NCBI RefSeq assembly: GCF_029582805.1
Contig: NZ_JAKKUT010000002.1
Coordinates: 62,001-126,000 of the forward strand
From: Candidatus Synechococcus calcipolaris G9
GTDB lineage: Bacteria; Cyanobacteriota; Cyanobacteriia; Thermosynechococcales; Thermosynechococcaceae
Length of the DNA: 64,000 nt
Direction: 5' to 3'
Shown piece after piece: positions 617 to 37,448 of the stretch. The position numbers were made by a program, and so were the translations under genes. The notes below the pieces were generated by a model that saw only the letters and a list, made by a program, of their open reading frames with translations, was not told where the DNA came from and made no database searches. Position 1 is the stretch's first letter, and every line of letters starts with the position of its first letter.

Positions 617-3250
617 ATGGTACAGGAACCTAGTTTCCGCCCGGATGTTGCCTCCCTACCCCCCCAGAACCTCGAAGCGGAGGAGTCTATTTTGGGGGGT
701 ATTCTCTTGGATGGGGAGGCGATCGCCCGCGTGGCGGACATTTTGCCGGTGGATGCCTTTTACCTAAGCTCCCATCGGGATATTTATCGGGCAACCTTGG
801 CCCTCCATGGTCGTGGCAGTCCGACGGATATCCTCTGTGTCACCGCTTGGTTGCAGGATCAGGGGCTGTTAGACAAGATTGGTGGACAAAACAAATTGGC
901 TGAACTGGTGGATCGTACCGTCAGTGCCGTCAATATCGATCGCTATGCCCTGCTGATTAAGGATAAATATCTCCGGCGTAAGCTGATTGAGGTGGGGAGC
1001 AATGTGGTGCAGATGGCCTACGATGCCAGTACCAGTTTAGATACGGTTCTGGATCAGGCCGAGCAACAGATTTTTAGCGTCACCCAGGATCGGGTACAGC
1101 AGGGATTAACGGCGACGGAGGAGATTCTTACCCGTGCCTTTACGGAATTAGAGCAACGGGCGATCGGAAATATTCAGCCGGGCCTGTCCTGTAATTTTTA
1201 TGATCTGGATAATTTAACCCAGGGTTTTCAGCGATCGGATCTGATTATCATTGCCGGTCGTCCCTCCATGGGGAAAACCGCCATTTCCCTGCAAATTGCC
1301 CGCCGCATTGCGGAAATTCACCATCTTGGGGTAGCGGTTTTTAGTTTGGAAATGTCCAAGGAGCAACTGGTGCAGCGACTTTTAGCCAGCGAAGCTCGCA
1401 TTGATAGTAATTATCTCCGGGCCGGCCGCATTAATCAGCACCAGTGGGAACCCCTGAGTCGGGCGATCGGTGTCCTCTCCCAGTTACCCATTTATATTGA
1501 CGATACGGCCAATCCCAGCCTAGGGGAAATTCGCTCCAATGCTCGGCGATTACAAGCCGAACATCCCCAGGGGTTAGGGTTGATTTTAATTGATTACTTA
1601 CAGTTAATGGGCAGTGATGATGGTACGGAGGGCCGGGTACAGGAATTGTCCAAAATCACGCGATCGCTGAAGGGATTAGCCCGGGAGTTAAATGTCCCCA
1701 TTGTTGCCCTATCCCAGTTAAGTCGGGGGGTAGAAGCTCGGCAAAATAAACGCCCATTAATGTCAGATCTTCGCGAGTCAGGTTGCTTAACTGGGGATAC
1801 GCTTATTCCCCTAGCTGACAATGGGCAGATTGTCCCCCTGAAGTCCTTAGTGGGGCAATCCGGCTTTAAGGTATGGTCACTGAATCAAACCACTGGAAAG
1901 TTGGTACCAGCTATTGTTAGTCATGCTTTTGCAACTGGTATCAAACCCGTTTGGCAGCTTACAACCCAACTGGGACGGACTATTAAAGCAACGGCAAATC
2001 ATCCATTTTTAACCATTCATGGCTGGCAGCGACTGGATCAACTTAAGGTAGGTACATATATTGCCCTACCCAGGAAAATTTCCATCGGACAAAATACATC
2101 GTTGGAACATACACGGTTAGCTTTATTAGGACATTTGATTGGTGATGGCTGTACCCTACCTCGTCATAGTATTCAGTACACAACTAAGGAATTAGAATTA
2201 GCAGAGGAAGTAGTCCGTTTAGTATCATATAGTTTTAAGCATCAAATTAATCCACGCATTGCTCCTGAAAGAAATTGGTATCAAGTCTATCTCGCAGCAG
2301 ATAAACATTTGACCCATGGACAACGAAATCCAATTGCTGCGTGGTTAGATGAATTAGAGCTTTTTGGTAAACGATCTCACGAAAAATTCATCCCTCGGTC
2401 TGTTTTCAACCAACCCAAAGATTCAATTGCCCTATTTCTCAAACATCTCTGGGCAACGGATGGATGTATTCATCACAAAAGCGATCGCCACCCCCAAATC
2501 TTTTATGCAACCAGTAGTTACCAACTTGCTAGGGATGTTCAATCTTTACTATTGCGGTTTGAAATTAATGCAATTTTACGATCGGTATCCCAAGGCAGTA
2601 AAGGTCGCTGTCAATTTCATGTTTTAATTAGTGGAAAACAGGATTTAGAGCGATTTATTCATGAAATTGGTGCCCTAGGCTCTCGCCGTCAGCAGGCTCT
2701 GCAAAATATTAACCATCAAATAAGCTCTTGTCAAAGCAATACCAATCGAGACATTGTACCTAAAGATGTTTGGCAATTATATGTTAAACCAGCCATGCAA
2801 AAAACTGGAACGACAGAACGGCAATTACAGTCTAGTTTAGGGATCTCCTATTGTGGGACAAGTCTCTATAGAAGCAATCTGAGCCGAGAACGATGCCAGA
2901 AAGTCGCAGATGTATTAAATTCAGAGTCCCTGGCTCAATTAGCAAATAGTGATATTTATTGGGACAAAATTAAAGAAATTGAGTTTATTGGCGAAATAGA
3001 GGTTTATGATTTAACCGTTCCTAAGCATCACAACTTTGTAGCTAACAATATAATTGTACATAATTCCATTGAGCAAGATGCAGACCTAGTGATATTACTC
3101 TATCGGGATGAATACTATAACCCGGACACCCCCGATCGCGGCATTTGTGAATTGATTTTAGCGAAACATCGCAATGGCCCCGTGGGAACGGTCAAACTGT
3201 TATTTGATCCCCAGTACACTCGTTTTGAAAACCTCGCCCAGCAAAATTAA
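617..3250 (+). CDS. dnaB: Replicative DNA helicase DnaB, interrupted by an intein
   Basis: This is the hexameric helicase that unwinds DNA at the replication fork. The precursor is 877 residues, and removing the intein leaves a 450-residue DnaB of normal size. The N-terminal primase-interacting domain covers about residues 15-150. The RecA-type ATPase has Walker A GRPSMGKT at 214-221 and a Walker B region with LILIDYLQL. The C-terminal motor segment is split, with DLRESG before the insert and [15 protein letters not shown] after it. Both exteins are in one frame, so a single precursor is made and must splice. The intein has its own entry. The insertion point is the same conserved DnaB site used by the Synechocystis 6803 intein. 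The start ATG at 617 gives the usual cyanobacterial N-terminus. Confidence 0.97.
1784..3064 (+). other. Full-length DnaB intein with LAGLIDADG endonuclease domain
   Basis: This 427-residue in-frame protein intron occupies DnaB residues 390-816. It starts with the nucleophile Cys in CLTGDTLI. The N-splicing block B is present ([15 protein letters not shown], with the TxxH-type His). It ends VHN followed by Ser+1, giving the penultimate His, terminal Asn and extein nucleophile needed for splicing. Between the splicing halves lie two dodecapeptide motifs, LLGHLIGDG and LKHLWATDG. Each retains the terminal Asp-Gly that supplies the metal-binding Asp of LAGLIDADG endonucleases. Length and N-terminal sequence resemble the Synechocystis DnaB intein (known to be about 429 residues). 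Splicing looks competent, and endonuclease activity is plausible from the retained Asp residues. Base composition inside the insert is visibly more AT-rich than in the exteins, in keeping with a mobile origin. Confidence 0.95.
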
Positions 3251-10267: not shown

Positions 10268-10513
10268 TTATTCCGTCCGCTGCATCGTAGTGTTAGGCTG
10301 CTGGGGCTGGGCAACCTGAATCAACAGCCGCAATGCTTCATTCACTGCTGCATCATTGGGGAAAGCTTGGGCAACATCGGGATCTAGAAGCACTAAGTTT
10401 GTCCCTGCAGAATACCGCTCAACATACTTACCCCTAACACCTCCCTGCATCTGAGAAAAATCATACTCAGAGTGTAATTCATCTCCCATTTCGTTCTCAG
10501 CGTCCTTCTTCAT
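10268..10513 (-). CDS. Orphan BrnA-like antitoxin (copy 1)
   Basis: This 81-residue protein has the cyanobacterial BrnA-like antitoxin pattern EYDFSQMQGGVRGKYVERY, AGTNLVLLDPDVAQAFP, AVNEALRLLI. BrnA proteins bind DNA and neutralise the BrnT ribonuclease toxin encoded immediately upstream. Here only the 3' end of brnT remains (10497-10604) and overlaps this gene by 17 bp, so the antitoxin is an orphan. The ATG at 10513 has GGGAGG upstream, which favours it over an earlier start at 10549 that would lie within the brnT remnant. The last residues (about PNTTMQRTE) read through a GCCTAACA...half-attC-like sequence, so the C-terminus may be altered. It is a paralogue of 31320-31565. Confidence 0.75.
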   Translation of the reverse strand: MKKDAENEMGDELHSEYDFSQMQGGVRGKYVERYSAGTNLVLLDPDVAQAFPNDAAVNEALRLLIQVAQPQQPNTTMQRTE

Positions 10514-10604
10514 AGAACCTCCCTTCCTGCCGAGTTGCTTTTTGGGCACTTATGATTCGTACTTTTTCTCCTCGGTCGGTATGGGCGACAACTAATGTCC
10601 TAGC
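10497..10604 (-). pseudogene. Truncated BrnT toxin, 3' remnant (copy 1)
   Basis: Immediately after the msrB stop codon the minus strand reads, without its own start, about 35 codons: ARTLVVAHTDRGEKVRI, then ISAQKATRQEGRFYEEG and a stop. This matches the C-terminal strand-helix of BrnT toxins (LVVxHTxRGxxxRIISAxxATxxE). The whole N-terminal part of the toxin is missing. The remnant overlaps the BrnA start by 17 bp, as in intact brnTA operons. It is too short to be a toxin. Confidence 0.62.
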
Positions 10605-10605
10605 C

Positions 10606-11004
10606 CTAATCTGCGGGTTGAAAGTCTAGGGACGCGGAATTCATGCAGTAGCGCAGTCCCGTCGGTGGTGGGCCATCTTCAAAGACATGGCCGAGGTGGG
10701 CATCACAGACGGAGCAAACCACTTCCGTGCGTACCATGCCATGGGAGCGATCGCTAATGGTGTGAATGTTATTTGGATCAATGGGTTGCCAAAAACTGGG
10801 CCAACCGGTTCCAGAGTCGTACTTGGTTTCGGAACGAAAGAGGGGAGTACCGCAACAGACACAGCTATAGGTACCCGCTTGCTTATTATTCCAGTAGCAG
10901 CCAGTGAAGGCCCGTTCAGTCCCCTTTTGGCGAGTGACCTGAAATTGCTCGGGTGTTAGCTCACTACGCCATTCCGAATCGGGTTTAACAACTTTTTTGA
11001 CCAT
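10606..11004 (-). CDS. msrB: Peptide-methionine (R)-S-oxide reductase MsrB
   Basis: MsrB reduces the R epimer of methionine sulfoxide in proteins, part of oxidative damage repair. It is 132 residues. The zinc-binding CxxC pairs are present (CVCCGTPL and [10 protein letters not shown]), as are the substrate motif SGTGWPSFW and the catalytic Cys in RYCMNSASL. The ATG at 11004 with AGGGA seven bases upstream is preferred over a TTG one codon earlier. Its stop codon abuts a brnT remnant, and the cyanobacteriochrome gene upstream on the same strand ends 20 bp away, so the two may be cotranscribed. Confidence 0.95.
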
Positions 11005-11024
11005 CAAATTCCCTATGCATACCC

Positions 11025-13409
11025 CTAGTTTAACGAAGAATCGCTCAGGTGTTGGTGGATGAAACGATCCATCTCATGGGCCGTGAGCGGGGGCGAGAGA
11101 AAGTATCCTTGACCAAAGGGACAGCGCAGCGATCGCAGTTGTTTGAGTTGGGCTAGATTTTCAATGCCCTCGGCGATGGTGTCTAGCTTCAAGTTTTCCG
11201 CGAGAGCCAAAATGGTATGCACCACCTCTAGGTCTTCGCGGCTACTATCCATCTGGGTAATAAAGGAGCGGTCGATTTTAATGCAATCTAGGGGCAAACT
11301 CCGTAGATAACTCAGGGATGAGTAGCCAGTGCCAAAGTCATCAATGGCAATTTTGACTCCCATGGCCTTTAATTGCAGCAAAATGGATTGGCCCATTTCC
11401 AGGTTTTCCATGAGGGCACTTTCGGTGATTTCAATTTTTAGGGATTCCCCTGGGAGTTTATTGACGGTTAGGATCGTTTGAATTTGCTCGACAATATCAA
11501 CCTGGGAAAAATGCCGCCCAGACAGATTCACGTTCATGGTGACACCAGCATCGGCTAAGGCTGGATAGGCCTGGAGCCATTCCTGAAGTTGTTCACAGGC
11601 CGATTGCAACACCCAATGGGAAATTCCTAAAATGAGGCCCGTTTCTTCGGCAATGGGAATAAAATCCTGGGGAGAAATGTTAGGTTTACCGTCACGGGGC
11701 CAACGAATCAGGGCTTCAAACCCTTGCAATTTTTGACTCCGCAGACTGACAATGGGCTGATAAGCCAATTCAAACTCGGCCCGCTCTAGGGCTTGCCACA
11801 GTTCCAGTTCCATTTGCAGGCGATCGCGCACCTGGGCATACATGGCACTATCAAACACTTCACAGCGATTTTTACCCTTGGTCTTGGCCCGATACATGGC
11901 GGTGTCTGCATCTCGCAGCAGATCTGCGGCATCGCTATAGCTGGCATTGCCCATCACCAAGCCAATGCTGGCGGTACTGTGGAGGGCATACTGATTCACT
12001 TCAAAGGGCCGGGCCAAACGTTTCCGTAAATGCTCGGCAATGGTTTTGGCCTGATCAAAATCGGCAATATCATCCAGTAAAACCACAAACTCATCCCCCC
12101 CCAAGCGGGCAACCAGATCCTGGGGACTCAGGGCCCGTTGCAGCCGTTCGGCAATTTCCTGGAGAAACAGATCCCCAATGGCGTGGCCCAAGCTATCATT
12201 TAAGTTTTTGAAGCGATCTAAATCTAGGCAGAGAACCGCATAGCAGTAGTCCGGCTTATTAGCTCCCAAGCGAATCGCATCATTCACCCGTTCTTCAAAA
12301 AGCCAACGGTTGGGTAAATGGGTCAGGGGATCATGACGGGCTTGGTAGAGGAGTTCCGCTTCCGCCGCTTTGCGATCGTGGAGTTCCTTTCGAGCTTTTT
12401 CGTAGAGTTCCGCCTGCTGAATAGCGATCGCCACTTGGGTTGAAAGCTGGCGCATTAAATCCACTTCCCACTCTTGCCATTCCCGGGGCTGATCACACTG
12501 ATGGGCCAGGAGTAACCCCCACAACTTTCCTTCAGGAACAATGGGCACGACCAGATTGGCCCGTACTTGGTAGTGGGCTAGTAAATCCCGATGGCAGGGA
12601 TGCATCGCCTGGGCATGGATATCCGTAATTGTCTGTATCCGCCCTTGGCGATACTTTTCCACAAAGCTTTCAATAAAACAACTATCCCCCACCACATCCC
12701 CTAGGGCCGAGGGCCAGGGATCAAGAACTGACTCGACTTCCATCACGCCCCGCCAGTCGGGCAAGAAGCGATAGACTAAGACCCGATCCGCCCTAAGGAG
12801 TTGGCGAACTTCATCCACGGTGGTTTGCAAAATGGTGGGCAGATCTAGAGACTCGTGGATATGCTCCATAATTTGGATGACGAGGCGCTCCCCCTCCGCC
12901 CTTTGGAGAAGGGTCTGATCAATGTGATGCCGCTCAATGGCATAGCGAAAGGCACGGGCCAAGAGATGACTGGTGACATCGGGCCAGGGGAGATAATCCT
13001 GACTGCCTTCCCGGACAACTTGGACAGCGGTATTGGGATGATCGCAATGGCCAATGACCACTAGGGGCAAATCACCATAGGTTTTTTGGAGGGCAACCAC
13101 TTGGGCTAAACCGTCTTTTTTGGGCCAGGTTAAGACCAGTAGCTGGGGATTAAATTCCCGTAAGAATTGATGATTAAGCTGGGAAACGGAAATGCGCTCA
13201 ACTAAAAATGTCTCAACTGGGATCTCGCGAATGAGACGTTCAAGGCGTTCCCCATCCTCTGAATCGTTTTCAATAATGGCAATTTTAGTCACAGAAACTA
13301 TTCTAGCTTCTGACAAACGCAGGGATGGGACTGGGCGATGCCGCCGCCCTTTGATTTTGATCGGGGTCAGGGAGGAGACATCTTGGGAAGAGAGGGAACC
13401 CATCGTCAT
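11025..13409 (-). CDS. DXCF cyanobacteriochrome GAF protein with GGDEF and EAL domains
   Basis: This 794-residue photosensory c-di-GMP enzyme has four regions. Residues about 40-160 form a receiver-like domain whose phospho-acceptor position appears to be Thr ([11 protein letters not shown]), so it is probably not phosphorylated. Residues about 175-335 are a GAF domain carrying the phycobilin-attachment Cys-His (PCHRDLL, C272) and the DXCF motif DSCF (C244). The 28-residue spacing is the one known from TePixJ-type dual-Cys cyanobacteriochromes. A GGDEF domain (GGDEF at 437-441) lacks the RxxD inhibitory site. A C-terminal EAL domain (EAL at 565-567) retains [20 protein letters not shown] and AEGIE. 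The architecture resembles SesB of Thermosynechococcus, known to act as a light-regulated phosphodiesterase. The promoter is probably in the A-rich 265-bp gap upstream (13410-13674). Confidence 0.93.
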
Positions 13410-20063: not shown

Positions 20064-20106
20064 GGAGGATGACCATTAGTTAGTTAAATCATGACCCAAA
20101 ACTAAA

Positions 20107-20265
20107 GAGTGAACCGTAGACCGCAGGGGTCGAGACTGGTTATCCAGTTAGACGTAATTCCTGCCGAGGTTTCAAGACGGATTCCCAGAACTGATCTCCA
20201 CCAGCGATCGGTTTATCAGGATTACGCTGAAGCCCCGGCCCTACGGTTGGGGTTTTTATATTGTC
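20107..20265 (+). ncRNA. Ribosomal L10 leader RNA
   Basis: The mRNA leader between rplA and rplJ carries the conserved L10-leader elements CCGTAGACCGCAGG...and, about 45 bases on, CCTGCCGAGGT, which base-pair to build the L10(L12)4-binding kink-turn structure. It is followed by a strong hairpin with a U tract (own entry) directly before the rplJ ribosome-binding site. This is the known autoregulatory element by which excess L10-L12 lowers rplJL expression. The sequence match is by eye. Confidence 0.85.
20231..20259 (+). terminator. Attenuator hairpin in the L10 leader
   Basis: A 10-bp stem (AGCCCCGGCC / GGTTGGGGTT, with several G-U pairs) has a CTAC loop and is followed by TTTAT. It lies 12 bases before the rplJ AAGGAG site. 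This is a plausible intrinsic terminator that would be the off state of L10 autoregulation. Confidence 0.75.
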
Positions 20266-20285
20266 AACCCAAGGAGATGATACGT

Positions 20286-31565: not shown

Positions 31566-31608
31566 AAGATTCTCCTTCGGATCGCGTCACTTCTCTTGCA
31601 CTACTCAT
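31552..31608 (-). pseudogene. BrnT toxin 3' stub (copy 2)
   Basis: An ATG that overlaps the egtB stop codon (ATGA) opens an 18-codon frame reading SSAREVTRSEGESYEEG. This matches the last helix of BrnT toxins (ISAREVTRSE...YEE). Everything upstream of it is egtB. The stub overlaps the brnA start by 14 bp. It could be translated as a tiny coupled peptide but lacks the toxin fold. Confidence 0.5.
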
Positions 31609-32768
31609 GAGTGGCACAGGCGCAATCCAGCAAAAACTTCCCGGGTCTCTGGGGGATACCAATTCCGAAAGGAGGGTCGCTTCACTAGGTTGCGGCTGGC
31701 CCAACTGCCCCCCCTAAGGACGCGGTGTTGCTGATCAAAGTAGGTCTCAGAGTAGCCAGGGTAGGGAAAACTCTGAAAACCCGGATAGGGGGCAAACCAA
31801 GTGGCTGTCCATTCCCATACCTGACCCGTGCCTTGGAGTTGTCCCGATTGGGCTGCAATTTCCCATTCCGTTTCCGTGGGTAGTCGTTGTCCGCGAAAAC
31901 AGGCATAGGCTTCGGCTTCATACCCACTTAAGCCACAGACGGGGAACTCTGGATGAGCAGAAAGTTGATAACAGGGTTGGGTCACTCCGGCTGCTTGGAG
32001 CCATTGCCAACCTTGGGTAGACCACCAGTGGGCCGTTTCATAGCCTCCAGCGTCAATAAAGGCTTGGTAGTCCCCCTGACTCACGGGATGTTGATCAATG
32101 GAAAAATCCGACAGGGGAACGAGGTGGCGGGGCTGTTCATTGTCTAGGGCGAAGGGATCATGACTGCCTTGTTCATAGTTTCCCTGGGGAATATGAATGG
32201 AATTCCCTTGGCAGCTATGGGTTCGGGGGATGTATTCAAGGGGGGGGAGGGCCTGTTGCAGGGCTAAGACCATTTGTATAGTTTCAGCGTGCTGGGCTTC
32301 ATGGTGAAGAATCCACCACCAAAGACGGGCTTGTTGGCTGAGGGCCATGGGGTCAAGCTGCTCAAGAGCTTCTAAAACCTGCTGGCGAATGGTATCGACA
32401 TAGAGGCGAATATCCGGGGCAGGGGGTAATGCACGACGACGATGTTTGGGGAGTCCATCGGCGGCAAAAAGGCTCCGGTAGTGGGGAAAAAGGGGCGGTT
32501 GACCTAACATTTTCTCTAGGAGCCACAGTCCTTCGGTGAAGCCAATATGGCCCCAATGCCATCCCACGGGGCTAAAGTTTGGATGGGCCTGATGGCAGAG
32601 AATGGTTTCGCTGAGGGGGGCAACAAGGTCGAGGGTTGCTGCGCGACTCTCCTCTAGGGCAGTTTTGAGATCAATCCGTAGGCGATCGCCATGAGTCGCA
32701 TTTAGATGATCTGAAGTCTTATGAATATTAAAACTTGTGGCTCTAGAGGTTGTAGAGTTGTGGTTCAC
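31605..32768 (-). CDS. egtB: EgtB-like non-haem iron sulfoxide synthase
   Basis: EgtB joins cysteine or gamma-glutamylcysteine to hercynine (trimethyl-histidine) with O2 in ergothioneine synthesis. It is 387 residues. The N-terminal DinB-like domain carries the iron-binding HxxxHxE (HHEAQHAE, His156/His160/Glu162) and an additional His in GWHWGHIG. The C-terminal formylglycine-generating-enzyme-like domain has HIPQGNYEQGS, QHPVSQGDYQAF, GQRLPTETEWEIAA and LRGGSWASR. Its start overlaps the end of egtC by 26 bp, indicating translational coupling. The gene for the hercynine-forming EgtD is not in this window. Confidence 0.88.
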   Translation of the reverse strand: MNHNSTTSRATSFNIHKTSDHLNATHGDRLRIDLKTALEESRAATLDLVAPLSETILCHQAHPNFSPVGWHWGHIGFTEGLWLLEKMLGQPPLFPHYRSLFAADGLPKHRRRALPPAPDIRLYVDTIRQQVLEALEQLDPMALSQQARLWWWILHHEAQHAETIQMVLALQQALPPLEYIPRTHSCQGNSIHIPQGNYEQGSHDPFALDNEQPRHLVPLSDFSIDQHPVSQGDYQAFIDAGGYETAHWWSTQGWQWLQAAGVTQPCYQLSAHPEFPVCGLSGYEAEAYACFRGQRLPTETEWEIAAQSGQLQGTGQVWEWTATWFAPYPGFQSFPYPGYSETYFDQQHRVLRGGSWASRNLVKRPSFRNWYPPETREVFAGLRLCHS

Positions 32769-35228: not shown

Positions 35229-37448
35229 ATGAATATTCAGCGATGGGTGAATCGGGGCGATCGCCAACTTCTATTCTTAGGAGTTCTGGCATTCATCATT
35301 GCGTTGTTAGCCCAAGTGGATTGGCGCAATACTCTACCCAATTTGCTGGGTTTCTGGCACAGTGGTCAGGCGATGTTTCGGCCCCAAGGCAACACCCTAG
35401 AAGTTCTCCTATTACCTGCCTTTATTTGGGTTGCCGTTACCTTTTTTCTAAAAGAAATTTCCCCGCGCCCGACCTTTTGGACCCGGATCATTGTCAGTAT
35501 GGGGATTGCCCTATTGGGAATTCGCTACGAACTGTGGCGTTTTTTTGGCAGCCTCAATTTAGATGATCCCCTCAATGGCACGTTGTCGGTCATTTTATTT
35601 TTGGCGGAACTTCTCACCGTCGTGAATACGGTCACGTTTTTTGTTCACACGATTTTTTCCATTGACCGTAGCCCCGAAGCCGATCGCCTCAGCCAGGATG
35701 TGATCAGTGGAACCTACCAACCGACGGTGGATGTGGTCATTCCCACCTATAACGAAGGGGTGGATATTTTGCGACGGTCGGTGATTGGTTGCCAGGCGAT
35801 GGAGTACGCTAATAAAACCATTTACCTATTGGATGATACTCGGCGGCCGGCGGTGCGGGCCCTAGCGGCGGAATTGGGCTGTGAATACCGCGATCGCCCG
35901 GATAACCGTCATGCCAAGGCGGGAAATATTAACCATGCCCTTCCCTCCATGAACGGGGAAATTATGGTTGTCTTTGATGCGGATTTTGTACCCAGTCGCC
36001 ACTTTTTAACCCGAACTGTGGGCTTTTTCCAGGATGAAAATACGGCCCTCCTGCAAACCCCCCAACACTTTTTTAATGAAGACCCCATTGCCGTCAATCT
36101 CGGTCTAGAAGGGATTCTCAATAACGAGCAAACCCTCTTTTTCCGCTACATTCAACCGAGTCGGGACTTTTTTAACTCCGTCGTTTGTTGTGGAACCTGC
36201 TTCCTGATCCGGCGATCGGCCCTAGATGAAATTGGCGGGATTCCCACGGAAAGTATCACCGAAGATTATTTCACCTCGATCCAAATGCAATCTAGGGGCT
36301 ATCGAGTCAAATATTTGAATGAAGCCCTAGCGGCGGGGATGTCACCGGAAACCATTAGTGCCTATATTAATCAACGACTGCGTTGGGGCCAGGGAACCCT
36401 GCAATCCCTGTTCTCTAAGGCAAATTTTCTTACGGTTCCCAATCTCCATTGGTGGGAGCGGGCATCCCATTGCCTGAGTATTGTCTATTGGTTTTTAGCC
36501 CTACCTCGGGTCATTTTTTTAGTGATGCCCTTGGCCTTTCTCCTGTTTGGGTTGGCTCCCCTACGGGCGACGATTAACGAAATTCTCTATTTTTATTTGC
36601 CCTACTATCTGGCGAATATTATGGCCTTCTCCTGGTTAACGGAGGGGCGGCGATCGGCCTTTTGGTCCGATGTATATGAAACGATTTTATGTGTACCCAT
36701 GGCCATGACGATTTTTGTCACCCTGGTCAGTCCAGGGGCCAAGCCCTTCAAAGTTACCCCTAAGGGGGATATTGACTCTAGCAACATTACGATTAACTGG
36801 CCCCTGATTCGCCCCTTAATGGTGGTGATGGTCTTATCCATTGTCGGAATTATCTACCGCACGGTGAGTATTCAAACAACCATTGTTAATCCAGATAGTT
36901 TGGCGGTGAACTTGGTGTGGTCAGTTTACAATCTATCTCTGCTTTTAATTTGTATGCTAGTAGCGATCGATGTCCCCCAGCGGCGACATACTCGGTTTTT
37001 ACGGCGGGAAGCCTGTGAATTGCAAATTGGTCAGGGACGATTTCGGGGCTATACCGTGGATATGTCGGAAGAGGGGGCGCGGATTCTCTTGGATCGCTAT
37101 GATGGCGAAGATTCCACCGAGGCGATCGCCCCAGGGGATGTCAATGCCACCTTCCAGGGGAAATTTCGCCTCCTCCCCCCCAGTTCCCTGACCAACTTAC
37201 CCCTAAAAGCCGAACTGCGCTGGCACGCCCGCCAAAAATTAGAGTCCCTCAAAGAAGATGAGTCCACCCAAACCGCCGAAGTTCGGGTGAGCTTCCCCCA
37301 GTTATCCTTGGCAGAGCAGCGGCGTTTAATTCCCTATCTCTACTGTGAGCCAGGCCAATGGGACGACATGAAAGTGCCGGAACTTAAAACCGCCTGGGCC
37401 ATGTTCCAATCAGTGCTACGGCTCCATCCCCTAGCGGAAAGTCGCTAA
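35229..37448 (+). CDS. Cellulose-synthase-like GT2 glycosyltransferase with PilZ domain
   Basis: This 739-residue inner-membrane processive GT2 enzyme resembles BcsA and Thermosynechococcus XcsA. Membrane helices precede and follow the catalytic domain. The GT-A catalytic residues are present: DD at 202-203 (YLLDDTRRP), DAD at 250-252, TED at 344-346 and QRLRW at 382-386. A C-terminal PilZ domain carries RRHTR (585-589) and DMSEEG (611-616), the RxxxR and (D/N)xSxxG c-di-GMP motifs, so activation by c-di-GMP is expected. Known products for this family are cellulose or another beta-glucan. Chain chemistry is not provable from sequence. It follows the asparaginase gene by 19 bp. Confidence 0.9.
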   Translation: MNIQRWVNRGDRQLLFLGVLAFIIALLAQVDWRNTLPNLLGFWHSGQAMFRPQGNTLEVLLLPAFIWVAVTFFLKEISPRPTFWTRIIVSMGIALLGIRYELWRFFGSLNLDDPLNGTLSVILFLAELLTVVNTVTFFVHTIFSIDRSPEADRLSQDVISGTYQPTVDVVIPTYNEGVDILRRSVIGCQAMEYANKTIYLLDDTRRPAVRALAAELGCEYRDRPDNRHAKAGNINHALPSMNGEIMVVFDADFVPSRHFLTRTVGFFQDENTALLQTPQHFFNEDPIAVNLGLEGILNNEQTLFFRYIQPSRDFFNSVVCCGTCFLIRRSALDEIGGIPTESITEDYFTSIQMQSRGYRVKYLNEALAAGMSPETISAYINQRLRWGQGTLQSLFSKANFLTVPNLHWWERASHCLSIVYWFLALPRVIFLVMPLAFLLFGLAPLRATINEILYFYLPYYLANIMAFSWLTEGRRSAFWSDVYETILCVPMAMTIFVTLVSPGAKPFKVTPKGDIDSSNITINWPLIRPLMVVMVLSIVGIIYRTVSIQTTIVNPDSLAVNLVWSVYNLSLLLICMLVAIDVPQRRHTRFLRREACELQIGQGRFRGYTVDMSEEGARILLDRYDGEDSTEAIAPGDVNATFQGKFRLLPPSSLTNLPLKAELRWHARQKLESLKEDESTQTAEVRVSFPQLSLAEQRRLIPYLYCEPGQWDDMKVPELKTAWAMFQSVLRLHPLAESR

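Follow-up and report, generated by a model that had tools for sequence, protein, structure and literature searches.

A SesB-type gene with receiver-like, cyanobacteriochrome GAF, GGDEF and EAL domains in Candidatus Synechococcus calcipolaris G9

The cyanobacteriochrome Tlr1999 (SesB) has a photocycle between forms absorbing at about 420 nm (blue) and about 500 nm (teal). In Thermosynechococcus vulcanus, SesB is a phosphodiesterase whose activity is raised by teal light and by GTP, and which represses aggregation (PMC5871770). The studied SesB has no cyclase activity and is alone in having a GGDEF domain without the required residues, and Thermosynechococcus SesC has an inhibitory site (I-site) (PMC5871770). 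We describe here a gene of the same type from another genus of the family. The find is well supported but ordinary, a counterpart of the already studied SesB and no new kind of system.

Domain organisation and relationship to SesB

The window (the whole stretch of DNA analysed, 64,000 nucleotides of contig NZ_JAKKUT010000002.1) carries the gene on its reverse strand, followed closely by msrB. The features of the locus are as follows.

11025..13409, (-) strand: SesB-type gene, a full-length, uninterrupted ORF of 794 aa with an ATG start, encoding receiver-like, DXCF cyanobacteriochrome GAF, GGDEF and EAL domains (ORF, Pfam, full-length orthologues in Thermosynechococcus and in genome G016, GAF tree)
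12936..13286, (-) strand: receiver-like (REC) domain, aa 42-158, without the phospho-Asp (T94), Thr/Ser (G120) and Lys (P141) of receivers (alignment, AlphaFold, Foldseek, weak sequence matches to receivers)
12420..12845, (-) strand: predicted bilin-binding GAF domain, aa 189-330 (Pfam GAF, E 3.8e-27; PDB cyanobacteriochrome matches; tree)
12741..12743, (-) strand: M223, beta2 colour-tuning position, Phe in trapped-twist types and Val in TePixJ (alignment; spacing from PMC5240096)
12675..12686, (-) strand: DXCF motif D242-S243-C244-F245 with the second Cys (aligned to TePixJ DPCF; D, C and F invariant in the clade)
12591..12596, (-) strand: C272-H273, predicted canonical bilin-binding Cys and its neighbour, which is Tyr in Thermosynechococcus SesB (alignment)
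12570..12572, (-) strand: Y280, helix-4 colour-tuning position, Leu in TePixJ (alignment; spacing from PMC5240096)
11865..12341, (-) strand: GGDEF domain, aa 357-515, catalytic residues intact, no RxxD I-site (Pfam, E 1.9e-47; alignment)
12087..12101, (-) strand: GGDEF active-site motif, aa 437-441, GSDEF in BP-1 SesB (alignment)
11088..11801, (-) strand: EAL phosphodiesterase domain, aa 537-774, catalytic residues intact (Pfam, E 1.9e-70; alignment)
10606..11007, (-) strand: msrB (peptide-methionine R-sulfoxide reductase, SelR domain), 17 nt downstream of the SesB-type gene (ORF, domain search, neighbourhood comparison)

A Response_reg match at aa 45-144 fell below the Pfam threshold (E 0.15). 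NCBIfam equivalog names (Tlr1612, DibA and others) were rejected for the 794-aa protein, as their scores were far below the cutoffs and their coverage was mostly of GGDEF-EAL.

Homologues were sought in 29 genomes of the same family. One outstanding match per genome was found in all 11 members of genus g11, with one more in G016. Genus g11 is taken to be Thermosynechococcus, since contigs named as such return identical best matches. The order of REC-like, GAF, GGDEF and EAL domains is co-linear over the full length of the protein with SesB of ten Thermosynechococcus genomes, at 54-60% identity (blastp), and with the G016 copy at 57%; the range leaves out the eleventh genus g11 genome (G027), where the gene is split over contigs. 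On a tree of 85 GAF rows, the query, Thermosynechococcus SesB and the G016 copy formed one clade of 13 rows with an SH-aLRT of 99, and the SesA, SesC and PixJ GAFs of these genomes fell into clades of their own. An earlier, sequence-only reading had called the protein similar to SesB, of a dual-Cys DXCF type coupled to a c-di-GMP phosphodiesterase. Co-linearity and the tree sharpen this likeness: judged by its sequence, the protein is an orthologue of SesB (Tlr1999), beyond mere similarity.

The identity of the comparison gene was followed through published primers. Four have been described for knockout of sesB in T. vulcanus (PMC9090330); tvsesB-2R matches within the BP-1 comparison gene (L012/L125, genome G028) and tvsesB-4R about 2.3 kb downstream of it. 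Two published sesA primers match in the sesA region.

No shared genes were found beside sesB in L125, L126, L128, L133 or L134, and in L127 the sole genes shared with the query neighbourhood are some 50 kb distant within the window. Gene neighbourhood is thus not conserved with Thermosynechococcus and was dropped as evidence, so that orthology rests on sequence and tree. The SesB-type gene and msrB are probably co-transcribed. In the other genomes compared, msrB was not found beside sesB, and a functional link to msrB was rejected as a mechanism because the adjacency was seen only here among them. Promoter and terminator scans gave signals no better than those in shuffled sequence.

Several other features of the window were recorded. 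Downstream of msrB by 56 nt is a 93-aa ORF (10268-10549, (-) strand) with no Pfam match, which by eye resembles a small antitoxin-like protein. A DnaB replicative helicase with an intein (617-3250, (+) strand) has its splicing domain at aa 397-816 and a LAGLIDADG endonuclease domain. A ribosomal protein L10 leader (Rfam RF00557) lies at 20096-20267, (+) strand, and a protein with DinB_2 and FGE-sulfatase domains at 31605-32768, (-) strand, resembles EgtB-type sulfoxide synthases in its architecture.

Receiver-like domain and photosensor

The receiver-like domain is less conserved, at 23-40% identity to the query across the clade, compared with 57-68% for the GAF and catalytic domains. The phospho-Asp and the Lys are absent from the entire SesB clade; the Thr/Ser slot holds Gly, Asp or Asn, with Ser only in G016. 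An AlphaFold model of aa 38-350, built from 37 sequences, had a mean pLDDT of 90, and the best PDB matches found with Foldseek were the receiver-GAF chains 6oap, 6oaq and 6ob8, which aligned end to end with TM-scores of 0.82-0.89. Retention of the receiver fold is therefore confirmed at the level of the predicted structure. The domain would be non-phosphorylated, with a structural role. It had previously been described as a decayed receiver without its Asp, fused in front of the photosensor. The missing Asp and the decay stand, with the fold kept in the model; the idea that the fusion is peculiar to this gene was rejected, as it is the standard architecture of the whole SesB clade. In genome G008, a receiver-GAF protein (L129:5097-7556) has canonical receiver residues and is 46% identical to the query across the receiver and GAF domains; it reads DSFF where the query has its DXCF motif, and its C-terminus is kinase-like. 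It may show what the ancestor of the receiver-GAF module of SesB looked like.

The GAF domain carries two cysteines 28 residues apart. The query segment GDSCF...PCHRDLL aligns without gaps with EDPCF...ECHLNQL of TePixJ (3vv4), at a phmmer E of 2.5e-38, and this indicates homology of the whole domain to TePixJ and no chance motif. C244, in the D-X-C-F motif, falls on TePixJ C494, and C272 falls on the canonical C522. The earlier assignment of a TePixJ-type DSCF and Cys-His pair is thus borne out by alignment with both TePixJ and SesB. All 12 full-length sequences of the SesB type keep D242, C244, F245 and C272 unchanged. The query shares His at position 273 with G016; Thermosynechococcus has Tyr there.

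Colour-tuning positions were placed by our own mapping of published spacing, in which the beta1 notch is 12 residues from the beta2 position and the motif Asp 38-39 residues from the helix-4 position (PMC5240096). By this mapping they are M223 and Y280. Of 181 GAFs, none had the Met/Tyr pair except those of the SesB clade and a single Nodosilinea GAF; Val/Leu is the pair in TePixJ, BP-1 SesA and BP-1 SesC. As the pair is that of SesB and unlike that of blue/green TePixJ, and the studied SesB is teal-regulated (PMC5871770), our best guess, made by analogy, is that a blue/teal photocycle is the likeliest for the 794-aa protein.

Catalytic sites

All EAL residues examined were present (E565, R569, N628, E660, E663, D690, D691, K711, E747 and Q767), and the active-site motifs are intact, as had been noted from the letters. 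The GGDEF domain keeps its metal-binding and nucleotide-binding residues; every cyclase residue checked was found (D396, K401, N404, D405, GGDEF at 437-441, K509 and R515), a point not raised in the earlier reading. Its I-site reads SPQD, which upholds the earlier observation that RxxD is missing, and the I-site Arg is replaced by Ser in every member of the clade.

The query does not have the GGDEF lesion of the studied SesB. GSDEF occurs only in BP-1 (L012, G028), G016 has AGDEF (L021), and in G023 (L013) the equivalent of Arg515 is Cys. The motif is intact in the query and in most Thermosynechococcus orthologues, so a GGDEF lesion does not define the SesB clade. The independent lesions in L012 (GSDEF) and L013 (loss of Arg) suggest recurrent decay of cyclase function. 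Because the GGDEF domain is intact, cyclase activity is possible, and a phosphodiesterase-only enzyme is likely rather than established.

A bifunctional enzyme like SesC, whose GGDEF domain would make c-di-GMP in one photostate and whose EAL domain would degrade it in the other, is the alternative that bears on this domain. It gains from the complete set of cyclase residues without RxxD product inhibition, and from the fact that the residues reported missing from the studied SesB (PMC5871770) match the GSDEF of L012, a lesion that the query is without. However, the GGDEF domain has been altered in three different ways (in L012, L013 and L021), as if the clade needs no cyclase, and GTP activates the SesB phosphodiesterase (PMC5871770), so that the GTP site may be retained intact for the sake of regulation. 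We hold bifunctionality to be a rather unlikely alternative. More speculative again is the proposal that, beyond BP-1 and its close relatives, SesB works as a light-switched bifunctional cyclase/phosphodiesterase without product inhibition; cyclase loss in the studied SesB would then be recent and local, and the dead receiver would have become fixed as a regulatory or dimerisation module of the photosensor.

The second alternative keeps the same enzyme and gives it the blue/green photocycle of TePixJ or SesC. The query has Cys-His, as do TePixJ and BP-1 SesC, and not the Cys-Tyr of Thermosynechococcus SesB, so that its colour may differ somewhat. Yet M223 and Y280, at the trapped-twist tuning positions, are those of SesB and not the Val/Leu of TePixJ and BP-1 SesC, and the residue after the canonical Cys was rejected as a simple marker of colour because Tyr is also carried by BP-1 SesA and by the PixJ GAFs of this genome. 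A blue/green cycle is accordingly possible but doubtful. That the GAF is a remnant without bilin, attached to a constitutive phosphodiesterase, is very improbable, as both Cys and the Asp and Phe of DXCF are conserved, the GAF matches SesB as closely (60-66% identity) as the catalytic domains do, and the genome encodes PcyA.

Proposed role and comparison with known systems

The reading that we prefer, at a probability of about 85%, is that the gene is the sesB (tlr1999) orthologue and encodes a blue/teal-switched c-di-GMP phosphodiesterase. The GAF domain would bind phycocyanobilin at C272, probably with conversion to phycoviolobilin, and C244 would add reversibly to bilin C10. As a result of this reversible bond, the 15Z dark state is proposed to absorb at about 420 nm (blue) and the 15E photoproduct, in which the C244 bond is missing, at about 500 nm (teal). 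The photostate could be relayed along the long helix between the GAF domain and GGDEF-EAL, and teal/green light would raise the phosphodiesterase activity of EAL. The GGDEF domain would serve chiefly as a regulator that binds GTP, and the receiver-like domain as a non-phosphorylated structural or dimerisation module. The resulting drop in cellular c-di-GMP would tip the balance from aggregation towards motility and counteract SesA, the blue-light cyclase. What is said of the chromophore, the colours, how activity is regulated by light and the role in the cell is carried over from the studied orthologue, and it is by this analogy that we infer the chromophore, colour and enzymatic activity of the 794-aa protein.

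The same genome encodes homologues of SesA (L131, CBS-PAS-GAF-GGDEF), SesC (L130, PAS domains with GAF, GGDEF and EAL) and PixJ (L132, two GAFs), together with PcyA, for phycocyanobilin synthesis, and a Tlr1612 equivalog (1691.6 bits against an NCBI cutoff of 1600). From these homologues, the Thermosynechococcus aggregation/phototaxis circuit looks conserved. PilZ-bearing cellulose-synthase-like proteins are also encoded; taken with the circuit homologues and PcyA, they make it plausible that the 794-aa protein acts as published for SesB, bringing c-di-GMP down under teal-green light and opposing aggregation.

One such protein lies in the window (35229-37448, (+) strand). Of the glycosyltransferase-2/cellulose-synthase-like type, it ends in a PilZ (c-di-GMP-binding) domain and shares 73% identity with a protein of BP-1; a second copy elsewhere in the genome is 75% identical. 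It is possibly an effector of the same c-di-GMP pool.

With this gene, the SesA/B/C light-colour c-di-GMP circuit reaches past Thermosynechococcus into another genus of the family, one whose genome is larger. As a naturally occurring SesB that combines Cys-His with an intact GGDEF domain, the protein is useful for testing the importance of the cyclase-dead state and of Cys-Tyr in the studied SesB.

Compared with known systems, the protein is closest to SesB, with which it shares the domain order including the dead receiver, the DXCF and canonical cysteines 28 residues apart, the tree clade, the Met/Tyr tuning pair, the absence of RxxD and the intact EAL domain. It differs in having Cys-His where SesB has Cys-Tyr and GGDEF where BP-1 has GSDEF; identity to BP-1 SesB is about 56%, and the gene neighbourhood is different. 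The bifunctional SesC (Tlr0911, PAS-GAF-GGDEF-EAL) likewise has a DXCF GAF followed by GGDEF-EAL, but it has PAS domains and no receiver, belongs to a separate clade, and is represented in the window genome by its own gene. The TePixJ GAF (PDB 4fof, 4glq, 3vv4) shares the DXCF and canonical Cys architecture, the spacing and the GAF fold, whereas its cycle is blue/green, its tuning positions are Val/Leu and its output is of the chemotaxis type. The dual sensor histidine kinase PPHK (6oap, 6oaq, 6ob8) has a receiver immediately ahead of a cyanobacteriochrome GAF and matches the fold of the whole module; in contrast, its receiver is seemingly phosphorylatable (a BeF3-bound structure exists), its DQYF in place of DXCF leaves it without the second Cys, and its output is a histidine kinase.
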